From: Bacteroidales bacterium
GTDB taxonomy: Bacteria; Bacteroidota; Bacteroidia; Bacteroidales; UBA932
NCBI GenBank assembly: GCA_017620335.1
Contig: JAFZQO010000012.1
Span: 1-64,000, forward strand
Direction: 5' to 3'
DNA: 64,000 nt
The position numbers and the translations under genes were made by a program. The notes beneath the pieces were generated by a model, which was given only the letters and a program-made list of their open reading frames with translations, searched no databases and was not told the origin of the DNA. This document shows positions 39,199 through 43,299 of this stretch, piece by piece; the first letter of the stretch is position 1, and each line of letters opens with the position of its first letter.

Positions 39199-41022
39199 TT
39201 ATTTCAAGTCCAAACCCAGGTCGCTGATGATGTCAATCACCTCAGGGTTGTTCTCCATGAGGTACTTGGCCTTGTCTTCCGGGGTATATATCACTTTCTC
39301 TTCCACGAACTGTGCCGCAGCCACGAAGAGCTTTACGCCTCCGCGGCCAAGGAGCTTCTGGAAACGGCCCTCGAGTTCGTGGAGCTTGTTCTGCTCAATC
39401 CAGTTGCGCTGGGCGTCGTTGGTGACGATGAAGGTCACGGTAAGCCCGTCTTCGCGGGAAATCTCCACTTTGGCGTTGGCGAGGGCGTTGGCGAGGCGAA
39501 GCTGGGCCGGGTAGAGTCCGGGCATCTCCTTCCACTTCTCAAGTATCTGTTCGTCAGTGAGTTCCTCCAATGCAGCCGCCGGGGTATCCGCAGCGGGCCT
39601 GGCGTCTTCGGGCGCGTTCATGAGGGCGCCGAGCGAAAGCGAGGCGCCCGTCTTCGGGGCCCGGCGTCGCAGCGCGGGCTTCGCCTCCTCCGCTGCCGCG
39701 GCCTCCGGCTTCGGCTCGGGTTTCGGCTCAGGCTTCGACTCAGGTTTCGGCTCCGCCCGGAGGGTATGGGTGCCTGAAACGTCCTGCTCCGCAGGACCCC
39801 CCCCAAGCAAGCTTGGGTCCCCCCCTCTTACGTTGCCGAGGGTGGCACGGTTTCCGGCACCCATACCCTCCGGCCTTCCGCCTTCACCTGACACGGTAGG
39901 TGCAGGAACGGCGGTTGTAGCGGGAACTCCCTTCAGGAGGAAGGACAGCTTCATCAGGGCGAACTCGATGTGCAAGCGCTGGTTGATGGCGGCCTTGTAG
40001 CCCGCCTCGCACTGCGTCGTGATTGCCAGCGCATCATACAGGAACTGCAGCGAGCAGGCCTCGGCCTGAGCGCGGTAGCGCTGCTTCAGCGACGCGGGCA
40101 GGTCCAGCAGGGCATCCAGCCCCGCGGTGCGGCTCACGATGAGGTCGCGCAGGTGCGAACTGATGGCCGAAATAAAATGCTGGGCGTTGAAACCCTTCGC
40201 GAGGATCTCGTCGAAGGTCAGCATCGCCGCGGCGTAATCCCCGGCGCGGAACGCGTCCACCAGCCGGAACGAATACTCGTAGTCCAGGAAGTTGAGGTTG
40301 CGGATGACATCCTCGTAATGCACCTCGGTCCCGCAGAAAGCGACCGTCTGGTCGAAGATGGTCAGGGCGTCGCGCATGGCGCCGTCGGCCTTCTGCGCGA
40401 TTATGTGCAGCGACTCATCGTCGATCGTGACCCCTTCCTTTCCGGCTATGTCCCTGAGGTTCATGACAATGTCGGGGACGCTGATGCGGTTGAAGTCGTA
40501 GGTCTGGCAGCGGGAGAGGATGGTCGGAAGTATCTTGTGCTTCTCGGTCGTGGCGAGGATGAAAATCGCGTGTGCCGGCGGCTCCTCCAGGGTCTTGAGG
40601 AAGGCGTTGAAGGCCGACTGCGACAGCATGTGGACCTCGTCGATGATGTACACGCTGTATTTCCCGACCTGGGGAGGGATCTGCACCTGGTCCATCAGAG
40701 CCTTGATGTCGTCGACGCCGTTGTTGGACGCCGCGTCCAGTTCATGGATGCAGTACGAGCGGCCTTCGGCGAAGGAAACGCAGGACTCGCATTCGCCGCA
40801 GGGCTCCATGTCCGGCCCGGGGTGCGAGCAGTTTATCGTTTTGGCGAAGATACGCGCCGTGCTGGTCTTGCCGACTCCGCGCGGCCCGCAGAACAGGTAC
40901 GCATGCGCCAGCTGGCCCCTGAGGATGGAATTCTTCAGGGTCCTGGCGATATTGTCCTGACCTATCAGGGACTCGAACGAGTCCGGCCTGTACTTCCTGG
41001 CTGATACGATATACTGACTCAT
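39199..41022 (-). CDS. dnaX: DNA polymerase III subunit gamma/tau
   Basis: DnaX is the clamp-loader ATPase. The 607-residue protein has RKYRPDSFESLIGQDNI, Walker A FCGPRGVGKTST (46-53), zinc cysteines C65, C75, C78 and C81, Walker B SVYIIDEVHMLS, and the arginine-finger region TTEKHKILPTILSRCQ. Domain III runs to about residue 375. Residues 384-422 are the in-frame palindromic repeat element (NRATLGNVRGGDPSLLGG...), followed by a KPEPKPEPKPE linker and the C-terminal tau part. No obvious programmed frameshift slip site was seen. The promoter at 41044-41051 is divergent to the next gene. Confidence 0.95.
   Translation of the reverse strand: MSQYIVSARKYRPDSFESLIGQDNIARTLKNSILRGQLAHAYLFCGPRGVGKTSTARIFAKTINCSHPGPDMEPCGECESCVSFAEGRSYCIHELDAASNNGVDDIKALMDQVQIPPQVGKYSVYIIDEVHMLSQSAFNAFLKTLEEPPAHAIFILATTEKHKILPTILSRCQTYDFNRISVPDIVMNLRDIAGKEGVTIDDESLHIIAQKADGAMRDALTIFDQTVAFCGTEVHYEDVIRNLNFLDYEYSFRLVDAFRAGDYAAAMLTFDEILAKGFNAQHFISAISSHLRDLIVSRTAGLDALLDLPASLKQRYRAQAEACSLQFLYDALAITTQCEAGYKAAINQRLHIEFALMKLSFLLKGVPATTAVPAPTVSGEGGRPEGMGAGNRATLGNVRGGDPSLLGGGPAEQDVSGTHTLRAEPKPESKPEPKPEPKPEAAAAEEAKPALRRRAPKTGASLSLGALMNAPEDARPAADTPAAALEELTDEQILEKWKEMPGLYPAQLRLANALANAKVEISREDGLTVTFIVTNDAQRNWIEQNKLHELEGRFQKLLGRGGVKLFVAAAQFVEEKVIYTPEDKAKYLMENNPEVIDIISDLGLDLK
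39757..39873. repeat. 117-bp palindromic element, copy 1, in dnaX
   Basis: A 69-bp core (39781-39849) is flanked by 24-bp inverted arms (39757-39780 and 39850-39873) with one mismatch. The arms carry CCGGAGGGTATGGGTGCC and its complement, plus inner TGAAAC/GTTTCC. The core holds GTCCTG-CTCCG-CAGGAC, a run of eight C, the palindrome CCCAAGC-AA-GCTTGGG, a second run of C, and TGCCGAGGGTGGCA. It lies in the linker of dnaX and is translated from the minus strand without a stop. The core matches copy 2 in 68 of 69 bases, but the outer arms do not. Confidence 0.85.
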
Positions 41023-41940: not shown

Positions 41941-43299
41941 ATGATTGCGGGGAAAACGGAGCAAGGGCTGCAATTCGCCGTCAGGCGTGGAGGTTCCTCG
42001 GTGGGCTACTGCGCGCTGAGCATACGCTGCGGCACCAGGGACGAGGAGGGATACCACGGCGGCATCGCACATTTCACTGAACATACCCTCTTCAAGGGCA
42101 CAGCCCGCAAGAGCGCGGCGGTCGTGAACGGCTATCTCGACAGGCTGGGCGGCGAACTGAACGCCTTCACCACCAAGGAGGAGATAGTCCTTCACGCCAC
42201 GGTGCTCAAGGAGGACTTGCCGAAGGCGGCGGGGCTCCTGTTCGAGCTCGCGACCGAAGCGACGTTCCCGGAGAAGGAGGTCGAGACAGAAAAAGGCGTC
42301 GTCATCGACGAGATCCAGTCCTACAAGGACTCCCCTGCGGACGAGATTTACGACCGCTTCGAAGAGATGCTTTACGAGGGGCATCCCCTGGGCCGGTCCA
42401 TCCTCGGGAAGCCGGCCTCAGTGCGCCGCATCACCTCCGATGAGCTGCGGCGCTTCGTACGGGAGAATTTCACCCCGGAACGGATGGCCTTCACCATGAT
42501 GGCCGACTTCAGCGAAGCGCGCATGGAACGGGACGTCCGCAAGCTCGCCAACCGATTCTTCCCTTCAGCCGGCGGGAGCATCGGAGCTGAAAACGTCCTG
42601 CTCCGCAGGACCCCCCCCAAGCAAGCTTGGGTCCCCCCCTCTTACGATGCCGAGGGTGGCACGGTTTTCAGCCCCGATGCTCCCGCCGTCGAAGATCTTT
42701 CCAGTAATTCCGGGCGAAGCGAAGATACTGCCGAATGTACTTGCAACCACTTCGACATGACGGTGGACAAGCGGAACCATGAGGTGAATGCCGTTATCGG
42801 CGGTCCAGCTCCGTCCCTCTACGAAGAGAAGGAGCGCATCGCCGCCATACTCCTGGCCAACATCCTCGGCGGCCCCGCCTCAAACTCCATTCTCAACGAC
42901 GTGTTGCGAGAGAAGAACGGCTGGGTCTATGGCGTCGAATGCGGCTACACCCAATACCGCGACACCGGCATCATGGCCGTCAGCCTAGGCTGCGACAGGG
43001 ACAACCTCGAAAAGTGCTTTGCCGCCATAGACAAAGCGGTCCGTGATCTTCAGGAGAAACCCCTGAGTGACAGGAAGTTGAAGGCAGCTAAGAAACAATT
43101 GCTGGGACAGCTGGCCATTAGTTCCGAATCCGGCGAGGCCCAGTGCCTGTCGATGGGCAAGAGCCTTCTCGCCTTCGGACGCGTCGCGTCCTCCGCCGAG
43201 AACAAGGCCGCCATCGAGGCCGTCACCGCAGCCGATCTCCAGGCCATGGCGCTCCGCATCTTCTCCCCCTCCAACCTCTCCCGCCTCATATACCTCTGA
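41941..43299 (+). CDS. M16 family zinc peptidase carrying two inserted repeats
   Basis: The 452-residue protein is a single-chain M16 peptidase (processing peptidase type) with the inverted zinc motif HFTEH (residues 44-48) and the third ligand in EVETEKGVVIDEI (glutamate near 119). The N-terminal half runs to about 208 (MERDVRKLANRFFPSAG), and the C-terminal half resumes at HFDMTVDKRNHEVNAVIGGPAPSLY. Between them about 60 residues are encoded by repeat DNA: residues 211-249 by the palindromic element and 250-272 by a second short repeat. M16 proteins usually have a linker here, so the fold may tolerate it. There is no signal peptide. Confidence 0.9.
   Translation: MIAGKTEQGLQFAVRRGGSSVGYCALSIRCGTRDEEGYHGGIAHFTEHTLFKGTARKSAAVVNGYLDRLGGELNAFTTKEEIVLHATVLKEDLPKAAGLLFELATEATFPEKEVETEKGVVIDEIQSYKDSPADEIYDRFEEMLYEGHPLGRSILGKPASVRRITSDELRRFVRENFTPERMAFTMMADFSEARMERDVRKLANRFFPSAGGSIGAENVLLRRTPPKQAWVPPSYDAEGGTVFSPDAPAVEDLSSNSGRSEDTAECTCNHFDMTVDKRNHEVNAVIGGPAPSLYEEKERIAAILLANILGGPASNSILNDVLREKNGWVYGVECGYTQYRDTGIMAVSLGCDRDNLEKCFAAIDKAVRDLQEKPLSDRKLKAAKKQLLGQLAISSESGEAQCLSMGKSLLAFGRVASSAENKAAIEAVTAADLQAMALRIFSPSNLSRLIYL
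42571..42687. repeat. 117-bp palindromic element, copy 2, in the M16 gene
   Basis: The core 42595-42663 (69 bp) is the same as in dnaX except one base, and lies in the same plus-strand orientation. Its 24-bp arms (42571-42594 and 42664-42687) again match each other with one mismatch, but their outer sequence (GGCGGGAGCATCGGAGC and complement) is unrelated to the dnaX arms. Only the inner CTGAAAAC/GTTTTCAG is similar. Here the plus strand is translated (NVLLRRTPPKQAWVPPSY...), the opposite strand to dnaX, again without a stop and with the same codon phase relative to the core. Confidence 0.85.
42688..42756. repeat. Second short repeat in the M16 gene
   Basis: Right after the palindromic element, GTCGAAG (42688-42694) and CTTCGAC (42750-42756) flank a stretch containing ATTCCGGGCGAAGCGAAGAT (42708-42727). 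This resembles the CCGAGCGAAGCGAAGGAAT motif found in metG at 45415-45442. It codes residues 250-272 of the peptidase (EDLSSNSGRSEDTAECTCNH), which have no counterpart in ordinary M16 proteins. It looks like a diverged copy of a second dispersed repeat. Confidence 0.5.

Follow-up and report, generated by a model that had tools for sequence, protein, structure and literature searches.

Palindromic elements with matched arms and a core in either orientation, some in frame within housekeeping genes of uncultured Bacteroidales

How does a palindrome of more than one hundred base pairs come to lie inside dnaX with the reading frame kept open, and what holds its two arms in register? The window analysed here, a stretch of 64,000 nucleotides from a Bacteroidales genome, contains two such elements, one in dnaX and one in an M16 peptidase gene. 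A sequence-only reading of this DNA had described a common core between arms peculiar to each copy, and had proposed that one side of the host sequence was copied in inverted form across the core. Here the element was followed through the source genome, its sister species and the wider order; genomes are denoted by G-numbers (G000 being the genome of the window) and loci by L-numbers.

The element in dnaX and its copies in the source genome

The layout of the dnaX copy is given in Table 1. As the sequence-only reading had it, the dnaX and M16 cores are identical at 68 of 69 positions over 69 bp, the two copies have different arms, those of dnaX are complementary at 23 of 24 positions, and both host frames, dnaX on the minus and M16 on the plus strand, are uninterrupted across the insert. 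Five of the six frames of the dnaX core are free of stops. The dnaX copy is predicted to fold as one long stem bearing three hairpins, with an energy of −75.1 kcal/mol compared with a mean of −44.3 kcal/mol for 200 dinucleotide shuffles (z −7.8). Rfam gave no match at gathering in the window and, among nine loci, one match at chance level (E 0.95); on this search (window and nine loci) a known structured RNA family was rejected, and the earlier suggestion of a replicating structured RNA found no support.

Table 1. Coordinates of the dnaX copy, its parts, the second copy and the two host genes (positions in the window).
Feature	Position	Strand	Remark
Palindromic element, dnaX copy	39757..39873	+	117 bp; core orientation per alignment A1
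Left arm, terminal stem	39757..39780	+	ends CCGGAGG, inner TGAAAC; weak family consensus
69-bp core	39781..39849	+	
5' hairpin GTCCTGC-TCC-GCAGGAC	39781..39797	+	sequence and fold
Central hairpin CCCAAGC-AA-GCTTGGG	39802..39817	+	two pairs with both-sided changes in other copies
CCCTC	39823..39827	+	complementary to GAGGG at 39838-39842
Motif GCCGAGGGTGGC	39835..39846	+	most conserved
Right arm	39850..39873	+	inverted repeat of left arm, 23/24
Host gene dnaX (DNA polymerase III gamma/tau)	39199..41022	-	open across element; NCBIfam TIGR02397
Second element copy, in M16 peptidase gene	42571..42687	+	core 42595-42663
Host gene, M16 peptidase	41941..43299	+	open across element; PF00675/PF05193

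Fifteen copies were located in G000, 13 by DNA search and two more, of a second subfamily, by covariance model; the DNA-search count excludes L014 (a second piece of L007) and L015 and L016 (arms matching each other). Each of the 13 lies inside an open frame of a separate gene, both strands and several frames being represented, so that in-frame insertion into unrelated genes on both strands, as previously claimed, holds for every DNA-search copy of this genome. The host genes are dnaX, atpG, the M16 peptidase gene, ispE, uvrA, aroK, a pcrA/uvrD-type helicase gene, truB, tilS, ribF, fmt, mtaB and trmB, named by best NCBIfam/Pfam match, which for some was below the curated cut-off. Moreover, in all 50 of the listed site-species rows (12 genes) the distance from one protein anchor to the next was divisible by three; the rows for mtaB in four relatives are misanchored and uninformative. 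In two cases, ispE of G105 (L206) and the pcrA-type gene of G000 (L007), the core is itself split by a further insertion and the host frame is still open.

Within G000 the cores of dnaX, atpG, M16, ispE, uvrA and aroK are mutually 0.94-1.0 alike and those of truB and mtaB 0.97, with other pairs at 0.75-0.90. These last values led us to reject the strong claim that cores track the genome and arms the locus; core identity was 0.842 within the same genome and 0.876 at the same locus, and cores did not cluster by genome overall.

The second subfamily is represented in G000 by L263 (G000:C15:35386-35457) and L264 (G000:C5:41814-41885), with further members L266, L267, L269, L272 and L275. It is recognised by CCCGTTCACG or a similar sequence, a loop ACGGGC (CATGGGC in L266) and long arms (31/31 in L264). 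No frame runs open across L264, and the one that does so in L263 spans just 129 aa.

Across copies the core is about 60-90 nt long and consists of a 5' hairpin, a central hairpin and the CCCTC/GAGGG complementarity around motif GCCGAGGGTGGC; the whole element has a median length of 129 bp (5th-95th percentile 112-165 bp, 271 copies). The motif is exact in 52 of 53 full-length loci chosen by a covariance model, itself built from 32 cores (alignment A1) all collected by the exact motif, and BLAST matches in distant species centre on it. The sets of 178 and 271 copies used below were gathered by a looser form of the motif, which misses motif-less copies; conservation of the motif and of CCC/GGG is therefore partly by construction. 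Two pairs of the central hairpin have changed on both sides among copies. The CCCTC/GAGGG form occurs in 253 of 267 parsed copies and CCCGT/ACGGG in 13, only the two outer positions of this pairing being informative because CCC and GGG belong to the search pattern. The pairing may form either a nested stem or a pseudoknot with the GCC/GGC stem. CGTC stands at the 5' boundary of the core in 159 of 271 copies, scored by position only.

Distribution and the association with RAYT-like transposases

The core model matches 124 of 150 genomes of the genus (at least 85% complete), with from one to at least 32 copies per genome; these counts are lower bounds, since 20-33 candidates at most were scored per genome. 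Across the order it matches five of 247 genomes: the source genome, one from another genus of the same family and three from other families, the matches outside the family being diverged relatives of the element. The sampled genus may, to judge by its size, be Cryptobacteroides. Among the matches listed (80 of 119 stretches) one record is a Candidatus Coprenecus and the rest are assemblies of uncultured Bacteroidales or Bacteroidia, ruminants figuring in many of the names.

Since the named records are metagenome assemblies and others are partly fragmented and incomplete, an artefact of assembly or of chance was considered. The arms of L268 (G072:C199), 72-87 nt long, do run to the contig end and may reflect an inverted duplication of unusual length or a fold-back made in assembly, but many species agree, at orthologous sites included, which leaves this explanation a negligible likelihood. 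A repeat of known phages or plasmids was likewise rejected, as 50,697 phage and 72,556 plasmid records gave no match at E 0.001. The sole viral contig that matched the exact core pattern is L537 (IMGVR_UViG_3300050510_000058).

Residence in genes is not general. In the wider sample 41 of 117 copies had a frame open across the copy and 300 nt to either side of it, compared with 1161 of 2340 random positions from the same loci; a further 24 of the 117 copies had both flanks open and were not open through.

The element might be the REP of a RAYT (HUH/Y1 transposase) system and owe its dispersal to RAYT, a reading that we hold to be doubtful but worth keeping in view. It derives from the distribution of RAYT-like proteins of two core groups (A/B), which occur in 79 of 87 genomes with at least five copies, in 18 of 37 with one to four and in 3 of 23 with none (147 of the 150 genomes, three zero-copy genomes being left out; Fisher 1e-12, phylogeny ignored; calls by PF01797, partly below cut-off, and NF047646, below cut-off). 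This link is a correlation, obtained with statistics that ignore phylogeny, and eight of the 87 element-rich genomes lack both core groups. Furthermore, most of 12 RAYT genes read by eye (no statistics) carry their own, different hairpin repeats, and about 31 distinct RAYT neighbourhoods, drawn from 41 partly redundant loci, include four with the element, three of these having the same match score; no cognate RAYT gene flanked by the element was found in this set. Nor is there a constant GTAG tag in the 271 copies: at a distance of up to 6 nt, GTAG/CTAC lies near the 5' core boundary in 4, near the 3' one in 30 and near an outer arm end in 21. A REPtron with the element as its REP was rejected, RAYT genes rarely adjoining the element and most of those read carrying their own repeats.

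The RAYT-like HUH proteins at L370-L401 (e.g. L396 in G016, L388 in G089 and L382 in G000) are divergent and about 300 aa long, a single model giving as many as 14 matches in one genome. Several of their genes adjoin distinct hairpin repeats of their own, some in arrays.

Arms and cores at orthologous sites

Inverted arms (score of at least 24) were present in 169 of 178 unique copies (95%), compared with 2.3% of 600 random cross-copy pairings of left and right arms. The median score of real copies was 44, a value exceeded by none of the 600 cross-copy pairings, and the median arm length 29 nt. That arms match within a copy and hardly between copies, as first described, thus stands. The further statement that they are unrelated outside TGAAAC/GTTT does not, for 161 deduplicated left arms share a weak consensus, with C/T at −7 to −11, G at −17 to −20, the hexamers CGGCAG (22/161) and CGGAGG (18/161), often at the arm ends, and an inner AAAAC; arms as random host sequence were rejected on these grounds. 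The consensus is clearer at the level of the genome, where several copies in G089, G082 and G223 share CGGCAGCTCGCCCCTGAAAAC / GTTTTCTGGGGCGACTGCCG or close forms that show paired differences. The sequence-only reading had named in advance copies with shared arms as evidence against itself, and such copies do occur in part, namely those of G089, G082 and G223 and L258, L262 and L270 of G576. Given the weak family and clearer genome consensus, a stretch of some 20-25 nt in each arm appears to be, for the most part, a terminal stem belonging to the element itself. Complementarity extends past the terminal motif, 31% of copies scoring at least 12 over the next 15 nt compared with 4.4% of cross pairs (52 of the 271 copies, those with a recognisable terminal motif), so that an outer part of the arm is locus-specific.

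The corresponding loops of sister species are without the insert. Four sisters (G141, G105, G194 and G072) with about 81% DNA identity over dnaX-M16 were compared, 51 genomes being left out of scoring. The clearest recent insertion is at fmt, where G000 has the element and G141, G105 and G194 have an empty site. Sites in ispE and atpG are empty in G141, those in uvrA, aroK and tilS in G194, and the M16 site in G105 and G194 is empty or a remnant. No constant target-site duplication was noticed in the occupied/empty pairs inspected.

Empty sites bear on a derivation of the arms from the host, in which the nascent strand of the left flank would join the core, snap back through the inner GAAAAC/GTTTTC repeat, copy the left flank in inverted form and return at a microhomology. 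At fmt of G000, with its three empty sisters, 11 of the 12 outermost left-arm positions agree with the empty host sequence of G141; the left side is the host-like CGGCAGGTGTCC and the right arm its inverse ACACCTGCCG, ending in GCCG, a possible host microhomology. The atpG copy of G000 has nearly this outer arm too, however, so similarity-guided targeting is equally possible. At trmB the flanks of L347 and L200 agree at 94% over 200+200 nt, and the core-free member of this pair shows just a left arm, which speaks for snap-back; deletion between short GAA repeats would explain it too, and in a further relative, L201, both outer arms are present and the core is missing. Pairing beyond the terminal motif also agrees with a host origin, and the family consensus common to the arms argues against one. 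On balance we consider snap-back somewhat unlikely. The original proposal, inverted copying of the host flank, is compatible with the fmt insertion and the outer extensions of the arms; 20-25 nt of arm carry the consensus. Sites with both arms and no core, which the same proposal had counted against itself, occur in part, at L201 (trmB) and L188 (fmt region); the core-free member of the pair L520/L188 consists of a perfect palindrome of 18 nt, a form compatible both with entry of a copy into a hairpin and with arms that have collapsed.

Copies at orthologous sites differ in the direction of the core. With pairs defined by flanks at least 72% identical over 80 nt, the core had opposite orientation in 41 of 108, many of which share a locus and hence are not independent. 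Among 38 such pairs with similar arms, ten cores were flipped and 99 changes were two-sided and kept the pairing, compared with 52 one-sided changes, a class that is under-counted because arms were found by complementarity. The tilS copies of G000 and G105 illustrate both features: their arms are clearly orthologous (25 paired positions the same, six altered on both sides, no one-sided change), and their cores point in opposite directions. Flips were seen in none of three pairs with a mean flank identity of at least 93%. Elsewhere the arms at orthologous sites are unlike (e.g. ribF, M16 of G000, and atpG and ispE of G194), as though separate insertions had hit one permissive loop; some of the 41 flips may therefore reflect re-insertion.

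Joint changes of this kind would also arise as compensatory substitutions under selection for an RNA or single-stranded DNA structure, such as a transposase-binding stem, orientation then differing by independent insertion. The strong folding, the both-sided changes of the central hairpin, the replacement of CCCTC/GAGGG by CCCGT/ACGGG and an internal arm mismatch seen by eye in several copies of G089, G082 and G223 are consistent with such selection. We nevertheless judge it unlikely: in-frame copies of the wider sample occupy five of the six frames, on both strands, which makes a common mRNA function improbable, and the flips among similar-armed pairs would need an extra cause.

The repeatedly occupied and emptied loops are insertion hot spots in tolerant loops. 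The trmB loop is occupied, emptied or holds remnants across L013, L019, L026, L347, L200 and L201, and so does the loop of one further gene, presumably speA, in L029, L031 and L035. Other repeats are found at these places as well. In G141 the loops of tilS (L215) and truB (L207), which elsewhere hold the element, carry different repeats, a CCCGAAGGTAGAGC / CATCCTTCGGG palindrome and a minisatellite-like repeat. A further repeat, GTCATTCTGAGCGAAGCGAAGAATC with close variants, turns up within or beside such loops at L222, L223 (ribF), L055 and L114.

Proposed template switching and relation to known palindromic repeats

The explanation that we favour, with moderate confidence, is that these are small, non-autonomous, hairpin-forming mobile elements of uncultured Bacteroidales in which template switching keeps the arms matched and turns the core round. 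A structured core sits between terminal inverted repeats of 20-25 bp whose pairing is kept more than their sequence. Copies would enter between or within genes, the survivors within genes being those that keep the frame, and the in-gene inserts are presumably translated as a tolerated, probably neutral loop. After insertion, DNA-polymerase template switching between the arms would keep them matched as they drift, and the same process would invert the core between them. Dispersal may be due to a single-strand (HUH/RAYT-like) transposase or to template switching itself.

Template switching between inverted repeats in yeast genes is described as homogenising the arms and inverting the spacer (PMC8604942), and has been proposed to create and maintain hairpin stems (PMC8794818). 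Joint arm changes and inversion of the spacer are thus reported products of the process, which is why we think that it maintains the arms and flips the core here. The products in those accounts are mutations of resident repeats, whereas the present element forms a dispersed family. Template switching, as raised by the sequence-only reading, is the best account of the matched arms and inverted cores; host-side inverted copying at each insertion is the less certain part of that reading. Spread without a dedicated enzyme, in which a stalling hairpin core would cause ectopic template switching at replication forks, microhomology of the host with the inner or outer arm would pick the site and fold-back would make the second arm, appears distinctly improbable to us.

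The closest known kinds, by size or palindromic form and by in-frame residence, are RPEs and intragenic REPs. RPEs are described as palindromes of 105-146 bp lying in frame within conserved housekeeping genes (PMC2229807, PMC10969869), and R. conorii is reported to have RPE-1 in truB and REPs in uvrB (PMC3733652). The present element resembles RPEs in being palindromic, in its size (117 bp in dnaX, median 129 bp) and in its in-frame position in conserved protein genes; it differs in belonging to another phylum and in its CCCTC/GAGGG core, weakly conserved arms and core flips, the RPEs being compared by description only. The account of GTAG/CGTC REPs presents them as short palindromes, some within uvrA, uvrD/rep or truB of various species, reports CGTC REPs in Bacteroidetes without an adjacent transposase and places some REP dimers within longer palindromes (PMC3733652). 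REP units, as described, are single hairpins of 20-40 bp, whereas the element has a three-hairpin core and arms of 20-25 bp. A CGTC REP is recognised by its CGTC tag with a stem of 8-9 bp and a CCA tail; in the element CGTC stands at the 5' core boundary in 159/271 copies, judged by position only. MITEs such as RUP, Correia/NEMIS and ERIC are comparable in size, terminal inverted repeats and in-frame fusions (PMC2229807), but neither a fixed terminal sequence nor a constant target-site duplication was noticed for the element in the pairs inspected, and its arms covary. As far as tested, we regard it as a separate family with unusual behaviour of arms and core, set apart from RPEs by description.

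Protein-coding palindromes of this size are, in the accounts cited, described chiefly from Rickettsia and Wolbachia, and no paper on this family in Bacteroidales was found among the open-access papers searched. A comparable family is now seen in most sampled species of a very large genus, with at least 400 one-per-species genomes, and natural loop-insertion variants of DnaX, TilS, TrmB, UvrA and other proteins are on offer. Should spread without a dedicated enzyme prove true, a selfish family returning time and again to the same loops of essential genes would be kept going by replication errors alone, and the same process would later correct its arms and flip its core. Since these loops of housekeeping proteins are available by the hundred in occupied, inverted, remnant and empty form, how such palindromes move and how their arms stay matched can be tested by comparison.
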